From: a virus
IMG/VR virus record: IMGVR_UViG_3300036804_000173
Location: 1-21,314 of that record
DNA: 21,314 nt
Direction: 5' to 3' (one strand)
The notes below the pieces were generated by a model. The model saw nothing but the letters and a program-made list of their open reading frames with translations, was not told the DNA's origin and did not search any database. Numbering within the stretch: the stretch's first letter is position 1; each line of letters begins with the position of its first letter. Shown here piece by piece: positions 1 to 20,789 of the stretch. The position numbers were made by a program, and so were the translations under genes.

Positions 1-570
1 GCATCGCAAATTTACGACGTTGTGACGGAGCGAAGCGTAGCGCGTTGTGACTGACGCGTGACGCATGCTTTGTTTATCTCGAAAGCATTCCTTCGATCAA
101 TAGCTTACAGAGTGGAACGCTCCCTTGTGCAGGGAGAGTGCTAGCTAACCCGTTGTAAACCCGCTGTCGTCGAGTCGTCTGTTCGTGCTCTGTACCCTGC
201 GACCGGCTGCCGCGGCTCGAGGCCCGACCCCCTCCGGTGCCCGCGGCCGGGAGGGCCCGACGGCCCTCCGTCGATTAAAAGTTCGCGACGCCACCCTCAC
301 GTATTCCCCCAGGTGGTGTCTGGCTGAGACACCAGTAGACACCGGTTCAAAAGAGTGGTGTTCCGGAAAATCGTTTCAGATCAGATAGATCACCAGTAGG
401 CACCAGTGCACCAGTAGTTTCCTATCTTTGTGTACACGCACACACACGGGCGCGCATATGCGCACATACATATACATATACTGGTGCATGTGGTGCATCT
501 GGTGATTACTAGTGCATATCAATGGGTTAACGATAGACACCACTAGACACCAGTAAGGGGTAAGTGGTGT
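1..570. other. Non-coding region upstream of the window's first gene
   Basis: I see no open frame here with a ribosome-binding site or recognisable protein, and the short frames that exist are Arg/Pro-rich translations of GC-rich DNA. The first 300 bases hold two short perfect hairpins: CTCCCT/AGGGAG at 120-136 and GGAGGGCC/GGCCCTCC at 250-269. Neither is followed by a T-run on either strand. From about 312 the region changes into a dense set of short direct and inverted repeats with a low-complexity alternating tract, annotated separately. It lies beyond the 3' end of the minus-strand primase-helicase gene. Confidence 0.7.
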
Positions 571-580
571 TTAGTCGGCT
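312..580. repeat. Iteron-like repeat cluster, candidate replication origin or regulatory region
   Basis: Short motifs recur in both orientations. TAGACACC-type units occur at 335-343, 534-541 and 544-551, the last two as a 10-bp tandem (TAGACACCAC, TAGACACCAG). CACCAGT units occur at 331-336 (partial), 391-397, 401-407 and 409-415. Inverted forms appear at 315-321 (GGTGTCT), 482-489 and 491-498 (TGGTGCAT), 499-504 (CTGGTG) and 564-571 (GTGGTGTT). GGTGTCT at 315-321 and AGACACC at 327-333 form a perfect 7-bp inverted repeat with a 5-base loop. Clustered iterons beside a primase-helicase gene are a known layout for phage and plasmid origins. Origin function here is inference; a transcription-factor binding array is the alternative. 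Confidence 0.55.
429..482. repeat. Alternating purine-pyrimidine tract with 12-bp palindrome
   Basis: Bases 429-448 and 450-482 alternate strictly between purine and pyrimidine, interrupted only by one extra G. The run passes from TG/CA dinucleotides through GCGC into TA/CA dinucleotides. It contains the perfect palindrome GCGCATATGCGC at 452-463. Such tracts can adopt Z-DNA or melt easily under negative supercoiling. It lies between the two halves of the repeat cluster, where a duplex-unwinding element would be expected in an origin. The structure is directly visible; the function is inferred. Confidence 0.6.
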
Positions 581-2592
581 GGGGCAGCAAAGTATCTCCA
601 TTCGCGGTTTTTGCCGGTGCCGCTTTGGCGGCGGGTCCAGCCGATTGAGCGCAGGCACCGGGCGATGCGGTTTTGGTCGCGTTGCGACCAGTCGGCCTGG
701 GCTTCGAAGCCGATGATGTCGCGGAGCGCTTCGCCGACCGAGAGGTCGCTGACGAGGTTGCGGCGGATGTATTGGGTGATGACGTCGTCCCAGGCGTCGG
801 GTTGGTAGCGCTGGGCTTGTTGGTTTTGGGCTTCGGCGAGGATCTCGGGTCGGTCGTCGGCGGAAAGGAACCATGGTTCGCCCGAGAGGTATCGGTCGCG
901 GGCTTCGGCCCACAGCTGGTCGCGGTCGCGGGTGAGAAGATCGATGTCGATGCGTCCGCAGCGCAGCGGCCAGAAGCGGCGGCCACCGGTTTCGTCTTTC
1001 AGATATTCGGAGTGGTTGACGGTTCCGGCGAAGATGCACTGGCGCGGTTGCAGGGCTGGCATTTTGGCGTAAGGGGCGCGGAAGCGGTCGACCTGGCGCG
1101 ACATGAAGGATTTGATTTTGGCGGTATCGGCGCGGGTGAAGCTGTCGAGTTCGGCGAGTTCGACGATCCACACCCCGGCGGTTTCTATTGCCGCGTCTTT
1201 GGACGAGAGGTCGGGGAAGTGGTCGGTGAACCAGGGGTCGGCGATGGTTCTGAGCGCGGTTGATTTTTTGCGGTCTTGCGGGCCTTCGAGGATGAGGGCG
1301 CAATCGGCTTTGCAGCCCGGCGAGAAGACGCGGGCGACGGCGCTGATCATCCAGCGCGCGGCGACGACCTCGACATAGCCGGGTTGCCGATCGTCGGCGG
1401 GTCCGCGCCACGTCGCTTCGACCCCGAGATAGGTGCTGGCCCACCCGTCGAGGCGGGGGGTTCCGTCCCAGCGGCAGCGTTCGAGATAGAGGCGGACGGG
1501 GTGGAAGGCGCGGTCGTGGGCGATCGTCCAGACGGCGTCGCCGACGATGGCGCTGCTGACGAGGAGGCCCGCGTGCTGGATCCAGTCGGTGGCGAGGTTG
1601 TTGTCGAGCTCGGACCACGGCTGGTTTTGCCCGGCCGCCGCCCAGGGTGGGGTGCCGGTGCGGATGATGTCTTTGGTGAATTCGTCGAAGGCGACGAGGT
1701 TTTGCCACTGGGGGCTGGAGCGCAGGAGGGTGACGGCGTTGGCGAGGACCGGAAGGAGGTTTCCGGTTTTGCTGCGGATGAATTGGCCTGTGCCGGGTTG
1801 GGGCGCGGTGCTTTTGGCGGCTTCTACGAGATCCTCGAGTTCGCCCTGGCTGTGGCCTTGGGCGATCCAGTCGAAGACGTCTTGCTTTGGTCCGAGCCCG
1901 GGGATCTCGACGATGGTGACGAGGGCGGCGACGCCCTTGAGGTGCGTTGCGACCTGCTGGGCGTGGTCGCGGCCGGCTTTGTCGTTGTCGACGAGGATGA
2001 CGGCGTCGGCGCCGCGGAAGTGCTGGTTGTATTCGGCGCGCCACTTGCCGGCCCCGCCGGGGTTGGTGGTTGCGGTGACCGACCACGCTTCGCGCATCCG
2101 ATCGACGCATTTTTCCCCCTCCGGGATCCACACCCGCCACGGTGTGCTGGCGGTAGCGGCGGCACGGGCGTGAAGGAGCTCGTCGAGGTGGTAGGGGATT
2201 CGGTCTATCCCGTTGAGGTTCCACACCCAGTCGGCATCGACGAGCCGGCGCTGAAGGAAATCCTTGGAGCGGCCGGCTTTGCCGGGTTCGATGCGGACGA
2301 CTTGGTAGCGGCGCTGTCCTGCGGCGTCGACGTAGTCGTATTGGGCGGTGATGTTGAGCGCGTTCGGGCGGCGGTCTTCGCCATTCTTCAACGGCCACAG
2401 GCTACGGGCCTTCAGCGCGGCGATGACACTATGTTGCTCGCAGCCGGCGCGGCAGATGACGAGCAGCTGGCCGTCCTTTTCGGTGATCGAGAGCGTCGGG
2501 TCGTGATCGTCGTGGGCGGGGCACAGGCAGCGCCACTCGCGCCCTTCACGGTGGGCCTTGCCGAGGTGAGCGGCGAGTTCCGCCGCGTTCAT
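571..2592 (-). CDS. Primase-helicase: zinc finger, TOPRIM and VapE/VirE-type P-loop domain
   Basis: This 673-residue protein looks like a complete phage replication primase-helicase. Residues 22-51 carry a CHC2-like zinc-binding pattern (CLCPAH, then CRAGC). Residues 155-245 look like a TOPRIM fold, with EGE at 158-160 and DNDKAGRDHA at 202-211, which would bind metal for primer synthesis. Residues 365-560 match the VapE/VirE P-loop family: the RLYLERCRWDGTPRLD entry motif, a P-loop at about 437-445 reading GPQDRKKST, an acidic Walker B strand at 474-485 (VWIVELAELDSF) and the TVNHSEYLKDETGGRRFWPL segment at 524-543. The P-loop lacks the usual glycine before the catalytic lysine. The C-terminal ~70 residues may be a winged-helix DNA-binding tail. 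It is the last gene of a three-gene minus-strand operon, starting 16 bases after its upstream neighbour's stop, with only a weak ribosome-binding site. Confidence 0.88.
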   Translation of the reverse strand: MNAAELAAHLGKAHREGREWRCLCPAHDDHDPTLSITEKDGQLLVICRAGCEQHSVIAALKARSLWPLKNGEDRRPNALNITAQYDYVDAAGQRRYQVVRIEPGKAGRSKDFLQRRLVDADWVWNLNGIDRIPYHLDELLHARAAATASTPWRVWIPEGEKCVDRMREAWSVTATTNPGGAGKWRAEYNQHFRGADAVILVDNDKAGRDHAQQVATHLKGVAALVTIVEIPGLGPKQDVFDWIAQGHSQGELEDLVEAAKSTAPQPGTGQFIRSKTGNLLPVLANAVTLLRSSPQWQNLVAFDEFTKDIIRTGTPPWAAAGQNQPWSELDNNLATDWIQHAGLLVSSAIVGDAVWTIAHDRAFHPVRLYLERCRWDGTPRLDGWASTYLGVEATWRGPADDRQPGYVEVVAARWMISAVARVFSPGCKADCALILEGPQDRKKSTALRTIADPWFTDHFPDLSSKDAAIETAGVWIVELAELDSFTRADTAKIKSFMSRQVDRFRAPYAKMPALQPRQCIFAGTVNHSEYLKDETGGRRFWPLRCGRIDIDLLTRDRDQLWAEARDRYLSGEPWFLSADDRPEILAEAQNQQAQRYQPDAWDDVITQYIRRNLVSDLSVGEALRDIIGFEAQADWSQRDQNRIARCLRSIGWTRRQSGTGKNREWRYFAAPAD

Positions 2593-4371: not shown

Positions 4372-4638
4372 ATGACAACGACCTGCAATTGTCCGGCGTG
4401 GTGGTGCTATGGGCTGGCTGACTGCCGCAAGATGACGACGCGGCCGGCGTTGAGGCGGAGGCACCCGGAGATGCAAGGGCTGCAGCCGATCAATGCGCTG
4501 CGTCTGCAATTTCTGGAAGACCGCCACGACGCGCTGGTGGCCGAGCTCGCGGAAGACGGCTGGACCGTGCATCAGCGCGAGGCCAAACGACATGCACTAG
4601 CGGCCATCGACGCGGCGATCGAGAGGCGCACGGCGTGA
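4372..4638 (+). CDS. Small Cys-rich hypothetical protein
   Basis: This 88-residue protein starts MTTTCNCPAWWCYGLADC, with four cysteines in the first 18 residues (C5, C7, C12, C18) and two adjacent tryptophans, which suggests a small metal-binding or redox motif. The remainder is helical and charged, ending AIDAAIERRTA. I chose the ATG at 4372 because a purine-rich GGAAG lies about nine bases upstream. An in-frame TTG at 4297 would add 25 residues and has no better ribosome-binding site. Its stop codon overlaps the GTG start of the methyltransferase as GTGA, so the two are probably translated together. Function is unknown. Confidence 0.6.
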   Translation: MTTTCNCPAWWCYGLADCRKMTTRPALRRRHPEMQGLQPINALRLQFLEDRHDALVAELAEDGWTVHQREAKRHALAAIDAAIERRTA

Positions 4639-5579
4639 GAAGCGCCACGATCACCGCCGCCGGGCGCAAGTTGACCTTGGCCGGTCGGCACCCGGTGTAT
4701 CTCGAGGGCCTTGATGGCACCGTTGCCGACACCGGGATGCTCGCCTCGGCAATCGCCGATCTACCTGCGGATAGCGTCTTCCTCGATGTCGGTGCCAATA
4801 TCGGCGCCACCGCGTTGCCAATGGCGGTGCAGCGCCCGGATTGCCGGGTGATAGCGTTTGAAGCCGTGCCCTCCAACGCCGATTGCCTGCGCGGCAACCT
4901 GCGGGCCAACGACATCGCCAACGTCAAGGTCGTCGAGGCAGCGGTCAGCGATACGCCCGGCACCATCGTGATGACCGACCATGGCCCGTGGTCCTATGCC
5001 GCTACCCATGATGCGCAGGAGCTCAACACCGTCCAGTGCCGATCGATTGTGCTGGACGACTACGCCGATCCTGCGGTTCGGTTCATCAAGATCGATGTCG
5101 AGGGGTATGAACCCAACGTCCTCGCGGGCGCTTCTCGGCTGCTGCAGGCCAGACCTCTGGTGGCGATGGAGTTCAATGCCTGGACCCTCTTGTTGCAGCA
5201 CTACGATCCATGGTCTTTCGCCGAGGCGATCTGGGAAAATTGGGAAATGCTGGCGATCAATCACCGGGGCGCATCGACAGCGAAATGGCCGCAAAACGGG
5301 CTAGATTTTCTCCACGATAACCTGGTTTTTCATTCCTGTGTCTCCGATCTGCTGCTGCGGCCCCGCGATCCGTTGCCGGATCTGGCGACCATGACGGAGA
5401 CGCCCGCCTCTTCCGCGCTTCGCGCCGAACTGGCCGCACTGCGCGCCGGCCTCGCCCAGGTGCAGACGGATCTCAACGGTTTGCAGTTGCAAATGGCGGA
5501 GATCCAAAGGTCGAGATCGTGGCGCGTCACCGCGCCGCTGCGTGACCTGAAGCGTATGTTTGGCCGCACGCGCCGATAG
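4635..5579 (+). CDS. FkbM-family SAM-dependent methyltransferase
   Basis: This 314-residue protein has the Rossmann-fold signature of the FkbM family. FLDVGANIG at 49-57 is the SAM-binding motif I, FEAVPSN at 75-81 carries the acidic residue of motif II, and KIDVEGYE at 152-159 is the family hallmark. FkbM proteins O-methylate sugars, polyketides and other small hydroxylated substrates. After the catalytic domain (to about residue 245) there is a linker, then a coiled coil at 257-293. The tail SRSWRVTAPLRDLKRMFG is also common at the ends of surface-glycan biosynthesis enzymes. The GTG start overlaps the upstream stop as GTGA. A phage carrying it may modify a host surface glycan or a virion glycan; the substrate cannot be inferred. 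Confidence 0.88.
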   Translation: MRSATITAAGRKLTLAGRHPVYLEGLDGTVADTGMLASAIADLPADSVFLDVGANIGATALPMAVQRPDCRVIAFEAVPSNADCLRGNLRANDIANVKVVEAAVSDTPGTIVMTDHGPWSYAATHDAQELNTVQCRSIVLDDYADPAVRFIKIDVEGYEPNVLAGASRLLQARPLVAMEFNAWTLLLQHYDPWSFAEAIWENWEMLAINHRGASTAKWPQNGLDFLHDNLVFHSCVSDLLLRPRDPLPDLATMTETPASSALRAELAALRAGLAQVQTDLNGLQLQMAEIQRSRSWRVTAPLRDLKRMFGRTRR

Positions 5580-15409: not shown

Positions 15410-15937
15410 ATGGCGAAAAAAACCTTGGAAGAGCGTTTCTGGGAGCGTGTTTCGCCAGAGCCGAATTCCGGCTGCTGGTTATGGACGGGCGCGTATCAAA
15501 CGAAAAACGGTGGGTACGGCCGGCTTTACGATAGTCCAGGCCGCTTGCGGTATGCCCATGCCATTGCATGGGAACTCTATCGTGGTCCGATCCCAGAAGG
15601 GACCGAGATCGATCATCTCTGCAGAGTGACGATTTGCGTAAATCCCGACCATTTAGAACCGGTAACCCACCGCGAAAACATGCTGCGCGGTAAGGCACCG
15701 TCCGCAGTCAACAACCGAAAAACGCACTGTATTCGGGGCCATGAATTCACCGCAGAAAACACGATGCATATTAAGAACGGCGATAGGCGATGTCGGGCCT
15801 GTTTAAAGCTGCCTCATAGACGGGAATATGAAAAAGCTTACAAGCGCTTGCCTCATAGACGGGCATACGACAACGCATACCAACGTGCGTACAAACGTGA
15901 AAAATATTGGCGGATGAAGAACAATGATCCTTCCTAA
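15410..15937 (+). CDS. HNH endonuclease with C-terminal zinc ribbon, homing type
   Basis: The catalytic core of this 175-residue protein lies at residues 49-93. Histidine 50 is in RYAHAIAWELYRGPIPEG, followed by IDHLCRVTICVNPDHLEPVT with H69, N78 and H81, and the conserved HRENMLRG tail. A second zinc ribbon (C107-RGH111, C128, C131) is typical of phage homing HNH enzymes. A 13-residue tandem repeat (LPHRREYEKAYKR / LPHRRAYDNAYQR, 134-159) gives a basic tail. These enzymes cut DNA at specific sites and spread their own gene. Base composition is lower in GC than the flanking genes. The gene ends 14 bases inside the portal frame, so it inserted close to the portal start. Confidence 0.85.
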   Translation: MAKKTLEERFWERVSPEPNSGCWLWTGAYQTKNGGYGRLYDSPGRLRYAHAIAWELYRGPIPEGTEIDHLCRVTICVNPDHLEPVTHRENMLRGKAPSAVNNRKTHCIRGHEFTAENTMHIKNGDRRCRACLKLPHRREYEKAYKRLPHRRAYDNAYQRAYKREKYWRMKNNDPS

Positions 15938-19766: not shown

Positions 19767-20789
19767 ATGCCTATTCCGGGCCAAGGTGTAGTGCCAACCG
19801 GCGATTTGTACTTGGAACTGACCGCGACTACACGTCGCGCATTCGTCCCGAGACTATTTGTTCAGATGTACTTCTCGACGCCTACCTATTTCTACTTAAT
19901 GGGGGGCGCGCAGAGGGCAGCTGGCGGTCTGTCGCAGATCACCGTGCCGATCCAGGGCCAGTCGATGGTCCAAGGCCAGTTCACTGGCTATTCGGGCGGG
20001 TTCAACAGCCCTGTGGTTACCCCGGGGATCAGCAATGCCCAGTTTCCGCTCGCTTATTGGGTGGTGCCGATCCCGTTGCCGTTCGGCGAAACCGTTCTTC
20101 AGGCGACTGATCGGGAGATCAGCATCTTAAAAGCGCGGATGAACGACGCCTATTCGGTGACGGTGCAGAACCTGGCGCCGTTGGTCTTCGCCAACAACAC
20201 CGGCAACTCGCTCCTGCCGAATTCCTTCCTCGACGCCTTCGACAACGGCACCAATTTCCCGGTTTACGGCGGTGTGTCGCGCACCGCGCCGATGACCCAG
20301 ACCTGGGCCGGGCAATATTACAACGCCTCGGCGATCACCACCGGTTTCACCCGCAAGACGATGTCGAATTACATCATTCGCATCACCGATGCGGCGGGTG
20401 GCGAAAGCCCAACCTGCGGGGTGATGAACCCAAGCGATTTCGCCATCCTCAACGACGATTTTATCGGCGTCGAGCAGATTTTCACCCGCCCGGGGATGGA
20501 ATACACCCAGGCGACCCCGGTGCGGACGTCGTTTCCGAATTTAAATGTAGCCGGAGTACCTATTTACGCAGATCACTTCTGCCCTGTAGGTAATGCTTTC
20601 TTCTTCAATAATAAATACACTAATATGTATATCTCAGAAGATGCCGCCTTCGACTTTAGTGGATTTTATTCTTTAGTTCCTCTTGGGCAGATCGGTCAAC
20701 AGGGCGTTGTTGTCTTGGGATATAACATTATTACTGCAAAACCAAGCGCAAATGCTTGGCTAACCGGCTTCTCAGGGGGTGCCTGGTAA
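19767..20789 (+). CDS. Major capsid protein
   Basis: This 340-residue protein has the strongest ribosome-binding site of the head block (GGAGG, 10 bases before ATG) and follows a probable scaffold gene, which is the standard place for the major capsid protein. Its N-terminus (LTATTRRAFVPRLFVQMY), a long helix with TVLQATDREISILKARM, and a beta-rich C-terminal half (FPNLNVAGVPIYADHFCP) are compatible with an HK97-like fold, but no single motif is diagnostic. The last ~250 bases (about 20530-20775) are clearly more AT-rich than the rest, with codons such as AAT, TTT, ATA and TTA. The stop overlaps the next ATG as TAATG. Confidence 0.68.
   Translation: MPIPGQGVVPTGDLYLELTATTRRAFVPRLFVQMYFSTPTYFYLMGGAQRAAGGLSQITVPIQGQSMVQGQFTGYSGGFNSPVVTPGISNAQFPLAYWVVPIPLPFGETVLQATDREISILKARMNDAYSVTVQNLAPLVFANNTGNSLLPNSFLDAFDNGTNFPVYGGVSRTAPMTQTWAGQYYNASAITTGFTRKTMSNYIIRITDAAGGESPTCGVMNPSDFAILNDDFIGVEQIFTRPGMEYTQATPVRTSFPNLNVAGVPIYADHFCPVGNAFFFNNKYTNMYISEDAAFDFSGFYSLVPLGQIGQQGVVVLGYNIITAKPSANAWLTGFSGGAW

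Follow-up and report, generated by a model that had tools for sequence, protein, structure and literature searches.

A putative iteron origin with an alternating purine-pyrimidine gap beside a VapE-type primase-helicase gene of an environmental phage

The repeat array and the adjoining primase-helicase gene

The window analysed in this study is the whole linear virus record IMGVR_UViG_3300036804_000173, a 21,314-bp fragment of an environmental phage. Near its left end, a minus-strand gene (571..2592) encodes a primase-helicase of 673 residues, and the DNA on the 3' side of this gene holds an array of short repeats around a central alternating tract (312..573). A preliminary description had pointed to a repeat array at 312-580, and both shuffling and a search for repeated words bear this out. 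The pentamer CACCA/TGGTG occurs 12 times in this stretch, against a mean of 1.45 and a maximum of 7 in 2000 dinucleotide shuffles, and elsewhere in the window it reaches at most 4 per 269-bp stretch. Moreover, no other region of the window is as strong in repeated 7-mers and 8-mers. The array is real and lies far beyond chance.

Thirteen copies aligned on an invariant GGTG yield the 14-bp consensus CTACTGGTGTCTAG, whose core GGTG/CACC is present in both orientations. From left to right, writing R for GGTG and F for CACC, the copies are R315, F330, F340 and R357 (left outer iterons, 312..361); F391, F401 and F409 (left inner triple, 386..417, minus strand); and, beyond a 64-bp gap, R483, R492 and R501 (right inner triple, 478..509, plus strand) followed by F538, F548 and R566 (right outer iterons, 533..574). 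As a pentamer, CACCA starts at 330, 391, 401, 409, 538 and 548, and TGGTG at 314, 356, 482, 491, 500 and 565. The two inner triples, each of one orientation, mirror one another across the gap; the orientation of the outer copies alternates, and they too come close to mirror symmetry. The last GGTG, at 566, abuts the stop codon of the primase gene (571-573), which this copy overlaps; the array therefore lies directly 3' of the primase-helicase gene, as previously described. The motifs had also been said to recur in both orientations. This is true of the core CACCA/TGGTG alone, since the exact words CACCAGTAG (a 9-mer) and TAGACACC (an 8-mer), with three copies each, are found on the plus strand only. 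A search of 2.9 million viral contigs for the exact word AGACACCANTAGACACC returned 11 contigs, none of them with a primase relative or such an array in the DNA fetched. At one of the other loci inspected (L300:1725-1805), direct repeats of AGACACC with 10-bp spacing lie inside an unrelated gene, where the word of the window recurs by chance or convergence; that they form an in-gene origin like that of lambda O is a guess.

The central gap is dominated by an alternating purine-pyrimidine tract of 53 bp (429..481), in which 50 of 52 steps alternate, and which we consider a candidate unwinding element. Uninterrupted runs of 20 (429-448) and 32 (450-481) nucleotides are separated by GGG. By comparison, 100 dinucleotide shuffles of the whole window gave alternating runs of up to 25, and outside this tract the longest run of the actual sequence is 11. 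The 12-bp palindrome GCGCATATGCGC, seen directly in the sequence at 452..463, is likewise present, so that both elements reported inside the array are there. The gap is mildly AT-rich (55% against 45% AT). The 3' half of the tract, from 463, falls within the least stable 0.1-0.4% of segments by nearest-neighbour energies, the figure depending on segment length, and the 5' half is alternating sequence containing GC.

The neighbouring protein combines a zinc-ribbon/TOPRIM primase, a VapE-type AAA+ helicase and a C-terminal winged helix, as judged from Pfam, PHROG, PDB and AlphaFold2. It matches the VapE-like helicase family PF05272 with an E value of 8e-75 (251 bits, cut-off 25), is classed as helicase/primase by PHROG, and matches PDB entry 7pds in sequence with an E value of 2.6e-41. 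An AlphaFold2 model built with 52 sequences reached a pLDDT of 81. The best structural match of this model is again 7pds (Z 31.3 over residues 265-673, winged helix included), and the SaPI5 primase-helicase 7ola matches with a Z of 11.9. DnaG-type primases match the N-terminal half (Z 11-15), with a DnaG-type core at residues 83-263 (Z 14). The DnaG-type and 7pds matches, together with the model, assign to a single chain a TOPRIM primase, a helicase and a winged helix. The predicted winged helix (residues 600-668, codons at 589..795 on the minus strand) lies inside the span matched by 7pds and comprises three helices and a two-strand wing, with pLDDT mostly of 86-94. We propose this domain as the reader of the iterons and the whole protein as the initiator.

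Only about 310 bp of the record lie to the left of the array. No function was recognised for positions 1-305, and their matches in the loci fetched from relatives are at chance level only. A G+C-rich inverted repeat without a T tail, GGAGGGCCCGACGGCCCTCC, is found there at 251-270. Rfam and tRNA searches of the window gave no matches, and the search for phage nucleotide relatives gave a single 103-bp match, in the primase of Microbacterium phage Quenya. Pfam and PHROG profile searches assigned no family to the rightward genes, and the names capsid and terminase are inferred for them from gene order and motifs; a pattern search of viral contigs for the putative terminase large subunit (686 residues) was without match. 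An FkbM-type methyltransferase gene (4635-5579; PF05050, E 7e-15) separates the replication genes from the putative structural genes, and an HNH endonuclease gene (15410-15937; PF13392), possibly for a homing endonuclease, is flanked by putative structural genes. Complete IMG/VR relatives with the putative capsid protein of the window (19767-20789) are 60-67 kb long. The helicase family is present in just 8 of the 46 IMG/VR records that have this capsid protein. Complete capsid-sharing relatives of this size that have no VapE-type helicase must therefore use another replication module, and the module seems to be exchanged within the phage group.

The array in relatives: position, layout and repeat word

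We scanned 168 loci of VapE-type primase-helicases from IMG/VR, GTDB genomes and phages, calling an array where, in the 1.5 kb 3' of the gene, a single 7-mer had five or more exact copies per 400 bp, both strands counted. Arrays were present in 99 of the 168 relatives, 92 of them close to the stop codon. By the same criterion, only 7 of 147 upstream regions and 7 of 168 coding regions scored. In a first panel, 58 of 91 loci were significant at p <=0.01 against shuffles, as compared with none of the 91 coding controls. The other 69 of the 168 relatives have no array within 1.5 kb; in several of these, one is found farther out, at 1.8-3 kb, or across the end of the gene.

The repeat word differs by lineage, with ACTGGGAACA, GTCCCAC, GTCACCA, CCGGACC and GGTGTTAC among the forms encountered. 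In a 67-kb relative, GGTGTTAC words flank an AT-rich tract, and in another related contig GGGACACC words flank CGCGCATGCGCGCGCGCG. The nearest full-length relatives, contigs assigned to Bryobacterales and to Terriglobia, have arrays that begin at the stop codon, with the words GTGTCCC and TGTTCCCAGT, which are kin to ACTGGTG of the window. The same plan is found in annotated phages of Paenibacillus, Corynebacterium, Staphylococcus and Rhodobacter, in a gut Evtepia phage and in a Streptococcus satellite. Bacteroides phage BU3-1 has no such array, and that of Streptococcus phage Javan100 is marginal. Absent or scrambled repeats in relatives had been named as grounds for abandoning the idea of an iteron origin; what we find is that the letters change, whereas layout and location, 3' of the same gene, stay constant. 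Near the origin region of one further locus (L100; G039:C1:60100-60400), GGCGAGA/ATCTCGC is dense, with up to 21 occurrences per 400 bp, and is probably a coding repeat, not an iteron array.

For a comparison of layouts, 45 non-redundant arrays were chosen, that of the window included. The inner groups are inverted across the gap in 42 of the 45, most gaps measure 60-120 bp, and the gap is AT-richer than its flanks in 42 of the 45. In 28 of these arrays, the gap contains the longest alternating run (expected share about 0.19, p 2e-10), and an alternating run reaches significance at 0.01 in 11 of the 45. Thus, the alternating gap is recurrent and not peculiar to the phage of the window, although it is not universal.

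Among close relatives, the repeat word changes together with the winged helix. For pairs whose helicase cores are more than 80% identical, and after correction for core divergence, the partial rank correlation was 0.41, a value reached in 0 of 500 permutations; because the pairs are not independent, this covariation is only suggestive. When all non-redundant arrays are taken together, the word follows helicase core and winged helix alike (partial Mantel for the winged helix 0.08, 79/1000). The comparison suggests, therefore, a link between word and winged helix that shows only among close relatives and is not separable from general divergence over the distant panel. In the pair L228 and L131, the helicase cores are 96% identical and the winged-helix regions 58%, and the words are GTCACCA and GTCCCAA, respectively. 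This pair, and the set L132/L155/L160 as compared with L123/L124/L139, are prophage-type loci with helicase cores 95-96% identical, diverged winged helices and different words, and they form a natural domain-swap series. Two other loci, L095 and L096, have near-identical initiators (core 98%), and in several copies their arrays differ by one letter of the word (GTTACACC and GTTGCACC), which suggests a concerted change of the array.

GC skew was followed in five relatives of 60-67 kb, read whole, that carry the putative capsid gene and the same helicase family. Three of the five have 127-bp end repeats, which probably arose where the assembly of a circular contig overlapped itself. Detrended cumulative skew reaches its minimum, in every one of the five, at a distance of 1-3 kb from the place 3' of the primase that the array occupies. 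The Fisher p for this coincidence is 0.002 if the genomes are independent; two of them are closely related. The minima are nearer to the 5' end of the primase gene than to the array, and gene orientation is a confounder that may contribute. Skew on the plus strand of the window climbs at the array, from about zero to +0.2, and across the primase and DUF3102 genes, both coded leftwards, it remains positive. This course is as expected if a fork leaves the array rightwards, and the left flank is too short for a flip to show.

A putative origin and its rival explanations

Altogether, we regard the array region as very probably a replication origin and the neighbouring primase-helicase as its initiator. 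The earlier proposal of an iteron origin beside this gene is strengthened in two ways: relatives preserve the plan, although not the letters, and in complete relatives GC skew has its minimum near the array. The preliminary description had suggested a DUF3102-like protein or a 190-residue protein as the one that binds the iterons. This part is not supported, and the evidence points to the primase-helicase's own winged-helix C-terminus. Nothing was found in favour of the DUF3102 protein, and the arrays accompany the helicase. They occur with TOPRIM-type and prim-pol-type N-termini alike, which points to the helicase with its winged helix as the constant partner.

We infer the following course of initiation. 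The predicted C-terminal winged helix would bind the 13 iterons, and the mirrored halves, with inner triples inverted and outer copies alternating, would seat two oppositely directed VapE-type helicase assemblies. These could melt the central alternating gap, two hexameric rings would load onto the melted DNA and the TOPRIM domain would then prime synthesis. The start would be bidirectional, with forks departing both ways from the array.

The functional element might instead be, in place of double-stranded iterons, a stem-loop of the kind proposed for plasmid pRN1; once extruded, it would have the inner triples as its stem and the alternating tract as its loop. The single strand does fold far better than shuffles (z -5.35), the two inner triples form a long stem with a loop of about 70 nt, and the origin of pRN1 is a stem-loop 3' of its rep gene (PMC4234260). 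Such a fold, however, follows automatically from inverted iterons, and the tract alone folds no better than chance (z 0.41). Moreover, the mixed orientation of the outer copies and the covariation of word and winged helix fit duplex recognition better, which leaves the stem-loop an unlikely answer. Hairpins also enter the argument for an operator or control region, in which the repeats would be repressor sites or mark the end of the primase operon. The array is non-coding and its inverted repeats could make RNA hairpins (z -5.5), yet it sits at the 3' end of a gene, no sigma-70-like promoter was found in 1-2700 and no T-tailed terminator inside the array. For an operator, it would be unusual to have about ten sites on two sides of a special central gap and to persist in this form in dozens of lineages, and we give this explanation little credence.

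Sites for partition, packaging or recombination are likewise made of repeats, and one of these might merely happen to lie beside the primase. In unrelated elements, among them phages, prophage regions and a satellite, however, the array is found together with the primase-helicase, and neither a partition nor an integrase gene was recognised by Pfam and PHROG among the ten window proteins scanned. A site of this type is accordingly very improbable, and the reading as an origin served by the adjoining primase-helicase is the one we follow below.

Relation to known origins and significance

The closest known counterpart is the origin of PICIs, including SaPIs. In PICIs of Gram-positive bacteria and of E. 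coli, the origin is immediately 3' of the initiator gene and has an AT-rich region between two sets of iterons; pri and ori of EcCICFT073 are required for plasmid maintenance, and PICI satellites have been said to be the only elements with this plan (PMC6092414). The array of the window resembles these origins in lying immediately 3' of the proposed initiator gene, in having two sets of short iterons that flank a presumed melting region and in using words that vary between elements, and the helicase is related in fold to Rep or Pri-Rep of these islands (SaPI5 7ola, Z 11.9). Unlike a PICI, which is a satellite-sized island of about 15 kb, the element of the window belongs to a 60-67-kb class of phages, and the fragment alone already measures 21.3 kb. 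Further differences are a gap made of an alternating purine-pyrimidine tract instead of plainly AT-rich DNA, a primase of the TOPRIM and not of the AEP type, and the combination of inner triples with outer copies of alternating orientation. The putative origin is of a known kind, the PICI type, and its variant features are the phage host element, the TOPRIM primase and the alternating gap. The earlier suggestion of an initiator-origin pair new to this phage group was too strong, since PICI/SaPI origins have the same plan and many VapE-type helicases are accompanied by it. Conversely, at the level of sequence, the present data contradict the view that the plan is unique to PICI satellites. Such origins may have been described in VapE phages before.

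Other systems share single traits with the window. PriRep1 (PDB 7pds, molecule "Similar to D. nodosus vapE", title "PriRep1 with dsDNA") is the closest solved relative of the window protein, although the matched chain has no counterpart of its TOPRIM half. The alpha protein of satellite phage P4 has the same make-up, with a TOPRIM-type primase, a helicase and a C-terminal winged helix in one chain, and uses the winged helix to bind origin repeats (as reviewed in PMC4234260). The layout in P4 is a two-site one (ori plus crr); one array is seen in the window fragment. The SCCmec helicase Cch2 has been shown experimentally to bind direct repeats just 3' of its own gene through its C-terminal domain (PMC7581432). 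Its repeats, in a putative origin, are just downstream of the helicase gene, as in the window, but Cch2 has only three AAGTG iterons, a separate primase and the setting of an integrated cassette. The origin of pRN1 is also 3' of a gene for a primase, helicase and winged helix (PMC4234260); it requires a stem-loop and has no iterons, whereas iterons dominate in the window.

As a tentative extension, which we consider possible but would not presume, VapE-type primase-helicase origins might form one large class in tailed phages and satellites. The recurring unwinding element of this class might be an alternating, Z-DNA-prone gap and not merely AT-richness, and, with each change of the winged helix, the word might be altered in all copies of the array together, so that a code between initiator and origin could be read. 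Such a recognition code is directly testable in the natural series of helicases that are nearly identical but differ in winged helix and word. Full phages that have the plan next to a VapE-type primase-helicase come from acidobacterial, alphaproteobacterial, actinobacterial and firmicute settings. Hence, the putative origins of many unannotated phages may be read directly from their DNA, and satellites and phages would have a replicon type in common.
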